Source: Ghiorsea bivora (GTDB taxonomy: Bacteria; Pseudomonadota; Zetaproteobacteria; Mariprofundales; Mariprofundaceae). Taken from it: a DNA stretch of 64,000 bases. The stretch lies in the NCBI RefSeq assembly GCF_000744415.1, contig NZ_JQLW01000005.1, positions 162,650 through 226,649 on the forward strand, given 5' to 3'. Below are positions 54,578 through 61,310 of the stretch, one piece after another. The translations under genes and the position numbers were made by a program. Positions within the stretch are counted from its first letter, which is position 1. Each line of letters begins with the position of its first letter. A model generated the notes under the pieces. The model worked only from the letters and a program-made list of their open reading frames with translations. It did no database searches and was not told the DNA's origin.

Positions 54578-54864
54578 AGTAATAGTTAAAAGTCGTACTG
54601 AGAACGTTTGATAAGATACAAGAACTCTAAGATGTGGGGTTATTAATTTGAGGTATTAATATGTTAGGAGGGTTTTCTATGCAATAAAGGTGAAAGCGTA
54701 AAGATATACGGATTGAGGAAACCTGAAAGTTTACAAATCTTTAAACCGACAAACCGCCCAATTTGCAAAAGCTGTCAATCAGCATCCATTGTGACCTCCT
54801 CAAAAGTTGCCAAAATCAAGCTCGTGAATCTCCAACTGTCTGTTTAATGCTCTTCTTATGAACG
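54578..54864. other. gene-free stretch before the mercury island
   Basis: No protein or RNA gene is supported in this stretch. Its last part (from about 54780) may be degraded IS3-type transposase sequence, because the reading frame leading into the clear remnant can be followed back a few codons but carries stop codons. Confidence 0.5.
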
Positions 54865-54982
54865 TATAACAACGAACGACCTAATATGGCACTTGGTGGT
54901 ATAACGCCTAAGCAAAAGCTGGCGTTAGCTGCGTAACAGTTTTCTACTTATAAATGCAGACACTTATGGGTGGATTACCTCA
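54865..54982 (+). pseudogene. IS3-family transposase C-terminus and right end, left flank of island
   Basis: The plus strand encodes YNNERPNMALGGITPKQKLA and LAA before TAA at 54934-54936: the end of an IS3-group OrfB transposase (compare WxYNxERPHxAxGGxTP). The sequence after the stop, CACTTATGGGTGGATTACCTCA up to 54982, is the IS end. A 105-base stretch matches 61120-61225 in inverse orientation. The rest of the element is missing or decayed (a stop interrupts the frame just upstream at 54859-54861). Confidence 0.8.
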
Positions 54983-55065: not shown

Positions 55066-55506
55066 TTAATTGGCATGTTCTTTTTCCATTCTCGTAAAAT
55101 TAACCAAACAACAACGACCTGATGGGTTCCTAGATTCACACGCGCATAAACTCTCTTTTGTCTGTTTCACTACAAAGTCTTTTATGGCTTTCGCCGTTCC
55201 ATTATTCAATGCAGTTTGATACACAGGTTTAGATATAGCAAAACAATGGCAAAGCATGGTATATTTTTCAGACTGAAATTCGCGCAACTTTGATTTTGAA
55301 ATGATTGTAACTGCTGAAAAGTAACCTGTTGTACAATCTTGATTAGAGCAAAAGGCATAATCACCAGACACCATGTTTTGGTTGTCTGGGAACTGCACCT
55401 GATGCAACATCGTCTGCCTACCCACAGGAAAGCAGCTTTGTTTGCATGTAGGACAAACCTTTCTTCCCTTTTTGTTGGTCGTACTACAACAAGAACATGA
55501 CATCAT
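55066..55506 (-). CDS. CopZ-like iron-sulfur metallochaperone, no HMA domain
   Basis: 146 residues with at least 15 cysteines. An N-terminal CSCC and CPTC zinc-like site, FCSNQDCTTGYFS, and a C-terminal BFD-type [2Fe-2S] site (LCHCFAIS ... LCACESRNPSGRCCLVN) match the N-terminal part of Archaeoglobus CopZ, which carries zinc and [2Fe-2S] and reduces or binds metal. The HMA domain of that protein is absent. It follows merA by 10 bases at the end of the operon, so it may handle Hg or another thiophilic metal; this role is inference. Confidence 0.75.
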   Translation of the reverse strand: MMSCSCCSTTNKKGRKVCPTCKQSCFPVGRQTMLHQVQFPDNQNMVSGDYAFCSNQDCTTGYFSAVTIISKSKLREFQSEKYTMLCHCFAISKPVYQTALNNGTAKAIKDFVVKQTKESLCACESRNPSGRCCLVNFTRMEKEHAN

Positions 55507-55516
55507 TCATTTCCTC

Positions 55517-57186
<1,670 letters not shown>

Positions 57187-57199
57187 GCTGACTCCTTAT

Positions 57200-57313
57200 T
57201 TAATGACATGACGGGCAGTACATTACTAACCACATTATGGCTAAAACAACCCCAATACCGATGATGACATTCGGGACAATTGAGTTACCACCCTTTTTTT
57301 CTAACGGACGCAT
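57200..57313 (-). CDS. 37-residue single-span protein with C-terminal CPSCH
   Basis: From ATG 57313 to TAA 57200: MRPLEKKGGNSIVPNVIIGI, then GVVLAIMWLVMYCPSCH. It has a basic start, one membrane helix (about 14-31) and a terminal Cys-Pro-Ser-Cys-His. Its ATG overlaps the merP stop by one base (TAATG), and merF follows after 14 bases. Position and cysteines suggest a mercury-binding membrane peptide, not described to my knowledge. It is too short to prove by sequence alone. Confidence 0.65.
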   Translation of the reverse strand: MRPLEKKGGNSIVPNVIIGIGVVLAIMWLVMYCPSCH

Positions 57314-57606
57314 TATTTTTTACCCTTAATTGTAGCTGGATAACCGAGATCCGTAATAGCCTGAGCTATTGCTTGAGGTGACTGTTCACTATCTTCATAA
57401 GTAACTGAGGCAAGTGACGTATTAATATCAACAGAAGCTTCGTGTACGCCTTTCATTTGCAAGGCTCTATGTCTAACACTGATGGGACATGTACCACAGG
57501 TCATGCCTGAAACATGAATAGTAACAGTTTGTTCCTGCGCCAAACCATTTTGTGCAGATATGGCAACCAAAGAGCAAAGTGCAGTAAGTAATATCGTTTT
57601 TCGCAT
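57313..57606 (-). CDS. merP: periplasmic mercury-binding protein MerP
   Basis: 97 residues: signal peptide (ending AISAQNGLAQ), then one HMA domain with GMTCGTCPISVRHRAL (Cys-x-x-Cys that binds Hg(II)) and DLGYPATIKGKK at the end. It hands mercury to MerT or MerF. It starts 12 bases after merT, in the order merR-T-P-x-F-A. Confidence 0.93.
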   Translation of the reverse strand: MRKTILLTALCSLVAISAQNGLAQEQTVTIHVSGMTCGTCPISVRHRALQMKGVHEASVDINTSLASVTYEDSEQSPQAIAQAITDLGYPATIKGKK

Positions 57607-57618
57607 AAATAAATCTCC

Positions 57619-57954
57619 TTATTTTATGAGGTATGGAAGTAATGAAGGTGAGATCAAAAGAAACATTGCAATTCCGCCTAATACCCAAAGTAGAACAGGT
57701 TTTTTGGGTGGGCAACCCTTGGCGATACATACTTTTCTACCTTGCCAGTGATTCCACCCCGCCCACACAATCAGAGCTAGAGTAATCACAGCAAATAGAG
57801 GTCTGTATGGTTCCATAGCAATAAAGGCCGAGGCTGAACCCAATCCCAACATCACTACAATTAGAGGACCAATACAGCACGCAGATGCTAACCCTCCTGC
57901 TATAACTGCACCAATTAATGGTGTGTTTTCTTTTTTTGTTTCAGTATTACTCAC
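57619..57954 (-). CDS. merT: mercuric transport membrane protein MerT
   Basis: 111 residues, three membrane segments. The first segment has the Cys-Cys pair (LASACCIGPLIVVMLGLGSASAF), and the cytoplasmic loop has a second pair (KVCIAKGCPP), as in MerT. It imports Hg(II) from MerP for reduction. Its ATG overlaps the merR stop by 4 bases. Confidence 0.93.
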   Translation of the reverse strand: MSNTETKKENTPLIGAVIAGGLASACCIGPLIVVMLGLGSASAFIAMEPYRPLFAVITLALIVWAGWNHWQGRKVCIAKGCPPKKPVLLWVLGGIAMFLLISPSLLPYLIK

Positions 57955-58337
57955 TTAGATTCCTCCAACGATTTTAAAATAGGGCATGCTTCACTGTCTG
58001 CTGATTGCTCACATTTATCTGCCATTTCTAAAAGAACATCCTTCATCTGGGATAACTTGGTAATACGTTCTTCTAGCTCTTGGGCTTTTGCTTTGGCAAC
58101 AAGTTGCACCTGTTTACAATCACCTGACTGAAGACCAAGAAGCTGAGAAATTTCATTGAGGGTAAAACCAAGTTCTTTTGCTTGTACGATAAATTTTAAA
58201 CGAATGACATCATCTTCAGAATATTGTCGGTATCCTGATTGGGTTCTCGCGGGTCGTGGAAGTAGCTCACGTTGTTCATAATAGCGTACCGTGTCTATTG
58301 GCACACTTGTCCTTTTTGATAATTCACCAATCTTCAT
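57951..58337 (-). CDS. merR: mercury-responsive regulator MerR
   Basis: 128 residues: an N-terminal winged HTH (KIGELSKRTSVPIDTVRYYEQRELLPRP) and a dimerisation helix. Hg-binding cysteines C74, C109 and C118 have the exact 35- and 9-residue spacing of C82, C117 and C126 in Tn501 MerR. The frame is open to 58379, but ATG 58337 (MKIGEL) is used: the extra codons cover the mer promoter. merR is here the first gene of the operon with merT, so it regulates its own transcription too. Confidence 0.94.
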   Translation of the reverse strand: MKIGELSKRTSVPIDTVRYYEQRELLPRPARTQSGYRQYSEDDVIRLKFIVQAKELGFTLNEISQLLGLQSGDCKQVQLVAKAKAQELEERITKLSQMKDVLLEMADKCEQSADSEACPILKSLEESK

Positions 58338-58343
58338 AGGCGA

Positions 58344-58375
58344 ATGATAAGCCTTGGAGTATACTCCAGAGTCAA
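58344..58375 (-). promoter_or_regulatory. MerR-type promoter and operator of the mer operon
   Basis: Minus strand: -35 TTGACT (58375-58370), a 20-base spacer, -10 TATCAT (58349-58344). The perfect palindrome TGGAGTATACTCCA (58355-58368) lies in the spacer, as in MerR-family operators, where the regulator twists the long spacer. The -10 ends only 6 bases before the merR ATG, so the transcript may be leaderless or nearly so. It begins just after the stop of the NHL gene. Confidence 0.85.
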
Positions 58376-58378
58376 GCA

Positions 58379-59338
58379 TTAATTTGGGTTATGTAATAAG
58401 TATCTTTGGATACGGTGATTGCCCCAATCAGCTATATATACCTGCCCATCCTGATTTACTGCTACGCCAGTAGGTCCAGAGAGTTTATTCGATTGATTTT
58501 CTGTACCACCCCAAGCTTCAATGAAGTGGCCACTACGATCAAAGTGCTGAATTCGATTATTATAAAAGTCAGCCACAAAGAGGTTGCCATTTTTCCCGAC
58601 AGCAATTCCTGAGGTTACACGGAACCTTCCTCCCCATAGCCCTATGCCGCCAATACTTTGCAAAAAACTACCGCTCGCATCAAAGATTTGTACTCGATTG
58701 TTATAAGCATCCGATACATAAACACGGTCATCCAATCCAATAACGATGCGAGATGGATAGTAAAACTCGCCTTTATGCCCATCTGTAACAATAAAATTTA
58801 ATGCAGAACGGACCACATTGACTTTACCTTGTTTGCCCCATGTCCTAATAAAATGTCCATCAGGTGTAAACACCTGAATACGATGATGATATTGATCCAC
58901 CACATAAACCTGTCCAGCTCCATTTACAGCTACATCTACAGGAGATTCAAATTCGCCCAACTTATCACCAGCATTTCCCCATACCGTTAGTAAATCCCCG
59001 TTAGCATTAAACTGAAATATTTGATCCAAATCATAATCTGTGACCCATACTGTATTATGAAGACCTATGCCAATACCACTGGGTTTTTCAAACAAATCCT
59101 GACCAATAAACATGATAAACTCACCACTTTCAGTGAACTTTTGTACACGTTTATTACGAACATCGGTAACATAAACGAAACCCCTCTTATCCACCGCTAT
59201 ATCAAAAGGCTCATTGAATTGCCCACACCCATCACCCAAGCTTCCCCATACCTGAACATTAATAGGGTTATCGGTACTACAAGCACTAAATAATACTGTA
59301 ACAAATAATGCTAGAAAAACCTTTATTAAAATTTTCAC
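58379..59338 (-). CDS. NHL-repeat lipoprotein of the second mer-type operon
   Basis: 319 residues. Lipoprotein signal with lipobox (LFSAC, Cys20), then about six NHL beta-propeller repeats (for example GQVYVVDQYHHRIQVFTPDGHF, RVYVSDAYNNRVQIFDASGSF). It is probably anchored in the envelope and used for binding, for example of a partner protein. Starting ATG overlaps the stop of the HMA gene by 4 bases. NHL lipoproteins are not part of known mer operons, so the role in metal handling is only inferred from the context. There are no metal-binding cysteine pairs in the repeats. Confidence 0.85.
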   Translation of the reverse strand: MKILIKVFLALFVTVLFSACSTDNPINVQVWGSLGDGCGQFNEPFDIAVDKRGFVYVTDVRNKRVQKFTESGEFIMFIGQDLFEKPSGIGIGLHNTVWVTDYDLDQIFQFNANGDLLTVWGNAGDKLGEFESPVDVAVNGAGQVYVVDQYHHRIQVFTPDGHFIRTWGKQGKVNVVRSALNFIVTDGHKGEFYYPSRIVIGLDDRVYVSDAYNNRVQIFDASGSFLQSIGGIGLWGGRFRVTSGIAVGKNGNLFVADFYNNRIQHFDRSGHFIEAWGGTENQSNKLSGPTGVAVNQDGQVYIADWGNHRIQRYLLHNPN

Positions 59339-59640
59339 TGGCGAGTAATATCACGTGCTGTAAAACCTGCTTTTTTTACAGCTTGGCGTAGCGATTGATC
59401 AGTCACACCCATGTTTTCCTGTATTGTAATCGTTGCCTTGCCTGTTTTCATATCAATTTTGACAGCTTCAATACCTTCTATTTTTTTCAGGTTTTTTTCT
59501 AAACCATAGGCACAAAAAGGACAGGATAGACCATCAACTTGAATGGTCACCGTTTGCGCTTTAACTCCTTCCGCAAACAAGGTATTTAAAGACATGATTG
59601 ACAGAATAGTAATAACAAAAATTGATTGTAATATGCGCAT
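59335..59640 (-). CDS. periplasmic heavy-metal-associated (HMA) protein, MerP-like
   Basis: 101 residues: signal peptide (about 1-22, FVITILSIMSLNTLFAEG) and one HMA domain with DGLSCPFCAYGLEKNLKKIEGIEAVKIDMKTGKATITI. The metal site is Cys-Pro-Phe-Cys in place of MerP TCxxC. The frame is open to 59682, but AAGGAG lies 8 bases before ATG 59640, and that start is used. It lies between an outer-membrane protein gene and the NHL lipoprotein gene. Confidence 0.88.
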   Translation of the reverse strand: MRILQSIFVITILSIMSLNTLFAEGVKAQTVTIQVDGLSCPFCAYGLEKNLKKIEGIEAVKIDMKTGKATITIQENMGVTDQSLRQAVKKAGFTARDITRQ

Positions 59641-59651
59641 TTTATAACTCC

Positions 59652-60548
59652 TTAAAAATTCCAGCGAAAACCTGTTGTCCACACCAAGTCTGTTTCAAGT
59701 GTTGTACCATTTAATTGTTGCTTCACTGGTATTAAGACTGCTGTTTCCAATACATATCGGCTAGTAACATATTGTAAACCAGGAACTAGGTTCCAAGTAG
59801 TTCCACCACTGTCTACATTAGTCGCACCTGCAAGCTTATTCTTTCCATTCCAAATAAGGTTAGATTCAAGCACAGCATAAATAAAAGAAGGTACACCAAT
59901 ATTCTCTAATGAATGTGGCAATATTCGGTATTGAAAAGACCCATCTAACCTAGCTTCATCACCAAATTTAAAGTCGTATGCTTTAGTGTTTGCCTGATAA
60001 CTTGTTGCTACATCAAACTCCCAGTCCAACGTTTGTCTGGTAATGGCGATGCCTACAAAAGGATCCCAAGAACCTGACCCAGATTGTAAAGGACGTGGTA
60101 TCAAGCCAAAGGCATCTTGCTTATCATACCTGCCACTGGGTATTTTTATGCCTATGAAAGGTGCGATGCGGAACGTATCCCCTGGGCTATCCACTTGGTA
60201 AACAGTGTAACGTGCAAATAGTTTACTATCACCCAAGCCCTTCGTCTTGCGACGAATACGTTCCCCTCCCATTGTGGTATCCATGAGTTTATTTACGTTA
60301 GCCACTACGCCAAATAACGCTAATTTAGAACTCAGGCCATAAGCCAGAACCAGAGGCACGGCTGTAACTGTCAAATCTCGTTTTTGGGAAGTAACATCAC
60401 CAGTTTTGCGAATCAGTTTTAGTTGTGATCGAAGAATACCTACCCCTTCGGACACTGGCAGGGCACTATTAAACGTAATGGGACCAGCAGTAGCTACACC
60501 CACAAACGTAAACAAACTACTGAGCACCATAATCCATACAAACATCAT
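59652..60548 (-). CDS. outer-membrane beta-barrel protein (MetA-pathway/transporter-like family)
   Basis: 298 residues: signal peptide (ending VGVATAG), then alternating short strands and turns typical of a barrel, ending in the aromatic TTGFRWNF expected of an outer-membrane protein. LFARYTVYQVDSPGDTFRIAPFIGIKIPSGRYD and SGSGSWDPFVGIAITRQTLDWEFDVATSYQ resemble the family annotated as MetA-pathway of phenol degradation/putative transporter. Its start overlaps the second merR stop by 4 bases. A role in metal or vesicle handling is inference. Confidence 0.75.
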   Translation of the reverse strand: MMFVWIMVLSSLFTFVGVATAGPITFNSALPVSEGVGILRSQLKLIRKTGDVTSQKRDLTVTAVPLVLAYGLSSKLALFGVVANVNKLMDTTMGGERIRRKTKGLGDSKLFARYTVYQVDSPGDTFRIAPFIGIKIPSGRYDKQDAFGLIPRPLQSGSGSWDPFVGIAITRQTLDWEFDVATSYQANTKAYDFKFGDEARLDGSFQYRILPHSLENIGVPSFIYAVLESNLIWNGKNKLAGATNVDSGGTTWNLVPGLQYVTSRYVLETAVLIPVKQQLNGTTLETDLVWTTGFRWNF

Positions 60549-60949
60549 TTACTCCCTTTTAGACTATCCATAATTGGACACGCGTTCAGAGCTCCTTTTT
60601 TTGGGCATGCATTCACAAGAGGAAGCAATGCATCTTTCATACGTTGTAGGTCAAGAATTTTACTTTTAATCTTTTCAAGATGACTTAAAGCCATGGCACT
60701 AACCTCAGCACAACTTGAATTATGATCACCTTGTAACGCAAGAAGTGCTGCAATTTGTTTCAGAGTAAATCCAAGCTTCTGTGCACGTTTGATAAAGAAT
60801 ATTCTTTGTACCGATATATCATTGAACAAACGATAGCCATTAAAAGATCGGGAAGGTTCAGGAAGCAAACCACGACGTTCGTAATAAAGAACTGTTTGTG
60901 TATTTACCCCTGCTTCTTTAGCTGCCCAACCAATAGTTTTTTGCCTCAT
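60545..60949 (-). CDS. second MerR-family regulator with complete Hg-cysteine triad
   Basis: 134 residues. HTH KTIGWAAKEAGVNTQTVLYYERRGLLPEP and a long helix. C80, C115 and C124 have the same 35- and 9-residue spacing as the Hg triad of MerR (and of the other MerR here), and the tail ANACPIMDSLKGSK parallels EACPILKSLEESK. It should respond to Hg(II). GTGGAG lies 7 bases before ATG 60949. It heads the unit with the outer-membrane, HMA and NHL genes. Confidence 0.9.
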   Translation of the reverse strand: MRQKTIGWAAKEAGVNTQTVLYYERRGLLPEPSRSFNGYRLFNDISVQRIFFIKRAQKLGFTLKQIAALLALQGDHNSSCAEVSAMALSHLEKIKSKILDLQRMKDALLPLVNACPKKGALNACPIMDSLKGSK

Positions 60950-61066
60950 TCATGTACTCCACTTTTTATCTACTTATAGTGCTTTCCCATTATCAACAAG
61001 ATGATTCGAAAGCGGGTATTTTATTATCTCGAAAGGTTCTTTTATAGATATCATGTAATCTGCGAA

Positions 61067-61097
61067 AACTAAACCCATGACTATAGTATGGAGTCAA
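61067..61097 (-). promoter_or_regulatory. candidate MerR-type promoter of the second mer operon
   Basis: Minus strand -35 TTGACT (61097-61092), 19-base spacer, -10 TTAGTT (61072-61067). A dyad CCATGACTATAGTATGG (61075-61091, one bulge) sits in the spacer. It lies about 120 bases upstream of the second merR and between this and the IS remnant. The -10 is poor, which is normal for activated promoters. The rest of 60950-61066 shows no gene. Confidence 0.5.
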
Positions 61098-61119: not shown

Positions 61120-61310
61120 TGAGGTGGTAATCCACCCATAAGTGTCTGTATTTATAAGTAGTAAATCATTAAGCAGCTAACGCTTAGTTTTTGTTTAGGC
61201 GTTTACCACCAAGTGCCATGTTAGGTCTCTCATTGTTGTACGTCCATAACCAACGTGTTGTATGCCTCTGAACTTCTTCCACCTCACTAAAGATATATTG
61301 GTTAAGTCAG
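61120..61310 (-). pseudogene. IS3-family transposase C-terminus and right end, right flank of island
   Basis: The minus strand reads IFSEVEEVQRHTTRWLWTYN followed by NERPNMALGG and then loses frame (GGTAAACGCC against GGTATAACGCC in the other copy, a one-base loss). The inward end GGTAATCCACCCATAAGTGTCTG begins near 61126 and mirrors the other remnant. It keeps more of the gene upstream than the left copy. No other gene is seen in 61100-61357. Confidence 0.8.

Follow-up and report, generated by a model that had tools for sequence, protein, structure and literature searches.

A MerR-regulated outer-membrane channel, periplasmic HMA protein and NHL-repeat propeller ahead of a mer operon in Ghiorsea bivora: a candidate soft-metal module

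In mer systems, passage of mercury across the outer membrane is usually attributed to diffusion or general porins, and we know of no mer operon with an outer-membrane channel or an NHL protein. Our literature search returned no paper joining a mer operon with an NHL repeat, or the PF13557 family with MerR and heavy metals. A large survey of mer genes leaves NHL proteins unmentioned and names the outer membrane in one figure legend only (PMC8261052). One mer gene, merG of plasmid pMR26 from Pseudomonas K-62, was proposed to alter cell permeability to phenylmercury; the portion of that source considered here describes no NHL protein or barrel, and merG is likened to the present genes by description alone (PMC3737084). 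As for channels, the solved COG4313 structure is a 12-stranded barrel with its N-terminus as a plug, for which hydrophobic substrates were argued. For Pput2725, passage of hydrophilic solutes was considered improbable, and characterized COG4313 channels are thought to import hydrophobic molecules (PMC4493636).

We analyzed a 64,000-nucleotide stretch (the window) of the genome of G. bivora, a marine iron oxidizer, in which a ten-gene block runs in constant direction on the minus strand down to position 55066. Its first four genes, merR2 and those for a barrel, an HMA and an NHL protein, are arranged head to tail, and merR1-T-P-F-A and a CopZ_Nterm gene come next. The earlier note had read the first four as a second MerR-controlled operon; the gene order was borne out, but not the separateness, since the strand runs on into merR1-T-P-F-A-copZ. 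The mer part comprises MerR1 (57951..58337; triad C-C-C, start corrected), MerT (57619..57954; PF02411, E 9.2e-14), MerP (57313..57606; PF00403, and 85.6 bits to TIGR02052, cut-off 92.55), MerF (56950..57186; NF033565, 100.4 bits, cut-off 50) and a mercuric reductase, MerA, with a C-terminal Cys pair and without the N-terminal HMA domain (55517..56950; TIGR02053, 558.4 bits, cut-off 454.45). The last gene encodes a 2Fe-2S metallochaperone of the CopZ_Nterm type (55066..55506; NF047645, 119.2 bits, cut-off 100), which recurs in zetaproteobacterial mer clusters (the window, L021, L023, L069, L070 and L080). The block thus shares a three-Cys MerR, a mer-type operator, MerT, MerP, MerF and MerA with mer operons of the Tn501/Tn21 type (merR-TP(C/F)A), but has an extra regulator and three envelope genes ahead of merR1. 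Relatives of these three genes adjoin CusCBA/CopA-type copper-silver resistance genes and CueR-like regulators in other Pseudomonadota, whereas the block in the window has neither an RND pump nor a P-type ATPase, and its barrel is not an RND outer-membrane factor.

The regulator at the head of the block, MerR2 (60545..60949, minus strand; PF09278/PF13411), has the full mercury triad, as the earlier note had said: all three metal-site cysteines are present, with a C-x8-C loop and the 9-residue spacing of MerR. Among NCBIfam models, MerR scored highest (TIGR02051, 129.6 bits), followed by CueR (109.7), ZntR (100.6) and CadR-PbrR (99.2), with the MerR score below the equivalog cut-off of 150.85. 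The closest solved relative of both MerR2 and MerR1 was 4ua1, which we take to be an Hg-MerR. Since PbrR has the same Cys triad, the triad does not prove mercury specificity, and together with the score below the cut-off it may, on sequence grounds, count against mercury sensing. The MerR2 promoter (61066..61097, minus strand; TTGACT-CCATACTATAGTCATGGGTT-TAGTTT) carries a mer-type dyad within a -35/-10 spacer lengthened to 20 bases. This layout is repeated 5' of merR2 in L064, L070 and L027/L067, and the operator matches merO of the Tn501-type mer operon in L124 (TTGACTCCGTACATGAGTACGGAAGTAAGGT). The pattern TTGACYCCRTACNNNNGTNNNGG, composed after seeing the site and its relatives, had one match in the window and none in 100 shuffles. 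Three loci in the class of G258 (L118, L119 and L120) have CCGTAC-N4-GTACGG-like operators, also matching the Tn501-type merO of L124, and their regulators lack the first Cys despite these mer-like operators.

The merR1 promoter/operator (58344..58375, minus strand; TTGACTCTGGAGTATACTCCAAGGCTTATCAT) is conserved in L021, L023, L024 and L080 and differs from the MerR2 operator; it resembles the ZntR-type dyad. The merR1 start codon lies about 6 bases past the -10 element, with a like layout in L021, L023 and L080. With the start lying about where transcription would begin, the merR1 message would likely be leaderless. The earlier note had listed start-stop overlaps at three junctions. Those of MerR2/barrel (60545-60548) and HMA/NHL (59335-59338) are true 4-base overlaps, and no other junction from merR2 to merR1 has one, the rest being start-codon artifacts. 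The apparent barrel/HMA overlap comes from an upstream GTG; in zetaproteobacterial relatives the gene begins at the counterpart of the ATG at 59640, and with this start, the gap is 11 bases. The NHL/merR1 overlap is likewise an artifact, because merR1 has its own promoter/operator at 58375-58344, and the ATG at 58337 is most likely the real start. Translational coupling of merR1 to the NHL gene was considered and dropped, as merR1 carries its own operator.

The first structural gene encodes a protein with a signal peptide and a C-terminal RWNF (59652..60548, minus strand). A sequence search of the PDB gave no significant match for it, so that a fold search was needed. The AlphaFold model was barrel-like (pLDDT 86.2, pTM 0.80), and Foldseek against the PDB placed the COG4313 channel 4RL8 at the top (E 4.5e-11, TM 0.65/0.71), followed by FapF. 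The predicted beta-barrel fold agrees with that of 12-stranded 4RL8 at about 17% identity. Aligned members of the family begin with a signal sequence, share the conserved segment PITFNSALP and a P-[ST]-G motif, and end in Phe. The 4RL8 fold, the P-[ST]-G loop motif and the C-terminal Phe are shared with the COG4313/PF13557 channels Pput2725, TcpY and SphA, and a low-confidence N-terminal segment ahead of strand 1 in the window barrel adds to the likeness. While the window barrel has no Pfam match, 12 of 26 family members match PF13557 (best E 2.9e-14). The protein models as a COG4313-type outer-membrane channel, although the known channels go with aromatic or lipid degradation and this one is linked to metal resistance. 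Between merR2 and the barrel, L029 (4491-5345) and L079 (301-1158) have a further, divergent barrel (about 24-26% identical).

The second structural gene encodes a periplasmic HMA protein (59335..59640, minus strand, with the start corrected to the ATG; PF00403, E 2.4e-11). It has the HMA fold, CxxC and export in common with the MerP and CopZ metallochaperones. MerP has a motif of its own, in place of which this protein has CPFC, kept in all aligned relatives, and its score against TIGR02052 MerP (47.4 bits) is below the equivalog cut-off of 92.55. The third gene encodes an NHL-repeat beta-propeller (58379..59338, minus strand; PF01436, E 5.9e-44, repeats in 5 stretches), a predicted lipoprotein in Zetaproteobacteria. 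In the window its lipobox ends in Cys20 and reads FSAC; several relatives have LAAC, LSAC or LAGC instead, and homologues in many other Pseudomonadota have an N-terminal hydrophobic anchor and no clear lipobox. A metal-binding role for the propeller was ruled out, no Cys or His being conserved across the NHL family.

Of 78 Zetaproteobacteria genomes, 14 carry a barrel homologue; within the genus of the window the count is 1 of 16. Homologues also occur elsewhere in Pseudomonadota and in two Deltaproteobacteria MAGs. In the tree, the zetaproteobacterial barrels fall into a single well-supported group (100/99). A search of the class of G099 returned the starting genome only. Among plasmids, the barrel had a few weak matches, in Acidibrevibacterium and Marinobacter, which adjoin HMA genes, and the NHL protein had distant NHL proteins only. 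In the window, the ten-gene block is bracketed by inverted, truncated 3' ends of an IS3-type element, one on the left (54856..54979, plus strand) and one on the right (61126..61310, minus strand). They are 97% identical, and 87% identical over 186 bases, respectively, to an intact copy with OrfA and OrfB on contig 13 of the same genome (G000; L133 621-1708). From these brackets and the patchy occurrence, the block was probably acquired as one unit; the G+C content (0.405 versus 0.42) adds nothing to this case.

We then compared the neighborhoods of 39 loci. Neighbors were named from BLAST matches to a small reference set, and some of these names were checked with Pfam and NCBIfam. Weak barrel matches of 360-400 aa and L116, which are other superfamily members, were left out of these counts, and all counts are minimum values because many contigs end inside the cluster. 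HMA lay beside the barrel at 26 loci or more and NHL at 22 or more, and one or both adjoin the barrel in most loci with enough flank. The co-occurrence beside merR that the earlier note had proposed to look for was found, with a MerR-family gene within about 4 kb of the barrel at no fewer than 29 loci. Mer-type transporter or MerP genes lay within 3 kb at 16 loci at least and merA within 10 kb at 9 or more. Copper- or heavy-metal-type efflux or oxidase genes lay within 10 kb at 17 loci or more. The arrangements include merP-F-A-copZ-merR2-barrel-HMA-NHL on a single strand (L069), merF-merA-HMA-barrel-NHL (L117), merR-T-(P)-F-copZ-barrel-HMA-NHL with no merA (L021 and L023), a module and a CusA/CzcA-family RND cluster in divergent orientation (L064 and L070) and a module between a copper-type P-ATPase and an RND cluster (L033). 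As a separate observation, L021, L023, L024 and L080 hold merT/merF-type operons without merA, and their genomes have no MerA over the cut-off.

True MerA, over the cut-off, occurred in 6 of 78 Zetaproteobacteria genomes, and the barrel in 6/6 of these (Fisher p = 1.2e-5). In the class of G385, MerA was found in 9 of 13 barrel genomes versus 47 of 261 others (Fisher p = 1.3e-4; p = 4.7e-5 without G485, a weak match and maybe a paralogue), and in the class of G258, in 3 of 6 versus 20 of 234 (Fisher p = 0.013). Stratified over the three classes, the association gave z = 7.2. These p-values overstate the case because genomes within a class share ancestry, although the direction was the same in all three. 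Barrel and MerA lay within about 30 kb in 12 of the 18 genomes with both (binomial 8e-15, assuming a 3% chance). Metal-rich habitats could link both gene sets without a shared function. Regulators near the zetaproteobacterial copies had the C-C-C mercury-type triad in 16 of 16 cases. At eight loci in the class of G385 (L104, L105, L107-L111 and L113), the loop of the regulator is short and its first triad position is taken by Arg or Lys; of these regulators, that of L104 was compared with the PDB and came out closest to CueR.

These contexts raise the possibility that the triplet is a copper/silver module hitchhiking with mer genes on metal-resistance islands, with mercury no substrate. The copper- or heavy-metal-type genes near 17/39 loci and the CueR-like regulators outside Zetaproteobacteria point that way. 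We consider it very improbable, given that the 16/16 zetaproteobacterial triad is absent from CueR, that MerR2 goes with a mer-type operator and that the module is present in every MerA-bearing zetaproteobacterium. The opposite extreme, a mercury-only module, is ruled out by the same copper-type contexts and CueR-like regulators. For the earlier note's outer-membrane mercury module, a mercury link thus stands in Zetaproteobacteria (triad, operator, mer continuation, L069 and the MerA association), but dedication to mercury does not. Non-mercury partners in most genomes, which that note had held to speak against a mercury role, were not what we saw: copper- or heavy-metal-type genes lay near 17 of 39 loci, and merA or mer transporters near 20. 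Taken together, the triplet is best read as a module of the outer membrane and periplasm for soft metals, which in Zetaproteobacteria is under mercury-type control. That it is a metal-resistance module is well supported.

We propose, at a little under even confidence, that the MerR2-controlled triplet is the outer-membrane/periplasm arm of metal resistance, with metal let out through the barrel. MerR2 would sense a soft metal, most likely Hg(II), on its mer-type operator and switch on the COG4313-type channel, the HMA metallochaperone (CPFC) and the membrane-anchored NHL propeller. The HMA protein would collect metal from periplasmic ligands, the propeller may keep the components assembled at the membrane, and metal, alone or complexed with a ligand, would exit the periplasm through the barrel. 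Periplasmic clearance of soft metals, with HMA as carrier and the barrel as outlet, is the most likely role and fits both copper-type and mercury-type contexts. Members of the family sit near RND pumps of the CusA/CzcA family, P-ATPases of the copper type and multicopper oxidases, and in other Pseudomonadota they occur with CueR-like regulators; the outward direction is favored because these copper-type systems export or oxidize rather than import. Against export, the triplet encodes no energy source. By analogy, import through MerT/MerF in mer systems, whose transporters are frequent neighbors, may also argue against it, as may the uptake of hydrophobic molecules suggested for known COG4313 channels.

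A rival reading is an uptake arm, in which Hg(II), probably in a neutral complex, would enter through the barrel and be handed by HMA to MerT/MerF for reduction by MerA, sparing envelope thiols. Known COG4313 members are proposed uptake channels (PMC4493636), and merT/P/F share a strand with the triplet, or with its barrel where the contig ends there, in the window, L021, L023, L069 and L080. In several operons outside Zetaproteobacteria, a MerT-like protein adjoins HMA and the barrel. Yet there is no merA at the locus in L021, L023, L024 and L080, no MerA in the draft genomes G066, G073, G020 and G090 exceeds the cut-off, and CueR-like-regulated loci beside copper exporters would gain nothing from extra uptake. 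We regard uptake as rather unlikely. We hold it unlikely that the triplet serves envelope sequestration or thiol repair, with HMA and the propeller holding or shuttling metal and the barrel supplying a ligand or removing damaged, metal-modified compounds. The specificity of COG4313 for non-polar compounds (PMC4493636) would suit this, as would the Trx-like and DsbD/CcdA-like genes within 3.2 kb at 10 of 39 loci, but the window and most zetaproteobacterial loci are without Trx/CcdA.

The export reading apart, the barrel-HMA-NHL module is a recurrent combination of known protein families, apparently undescribed as such. Tentatively, it may be an undescribed kind of metal-resistance module that moves soft metals across the outer membrane by means of a channel, a dedicated metallochaperone in the periplasm and a propeller as scaffold, with specificity set by swapping the regulator, CueR-like in many other Pseudomonadota and MerR-type in Zetaproteobacteria. 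If so, no mer system before it would have had an outer-membrane component of its own, and mercury detoxification may include an outer-membrane arm so far undescribed. Because a mer-type operator here precedes genes for a channel and a metallochaperone, found in all MerA-bearing Zetaproteobacteria, the outer-membrane step becomes testable. That the structural genes stay the same while the regulator apparently alternates between a copper-type and a mercury-type one offers a natural experiment on metal specificity.

A few further features were seen around the surveyed loci. A Cys-rich exported protein of about 150 aa with no Pfam match lies by the neighboring RND clusters of L064 (8000-8452), L070 and L110 (6927-7379). 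In L120, an MFS-like gene and another ORF start near two mer-type operators (at 1907 and 3875), a hint that the regulon may be wider. The clusters of L104 (11629-13214), L107 (6407-7995) and L109 (6345-7948) contain a thioredoxin-like and DsbD_TM/ArsG-like pair, a possible periplasmic thiol-reducing partner.
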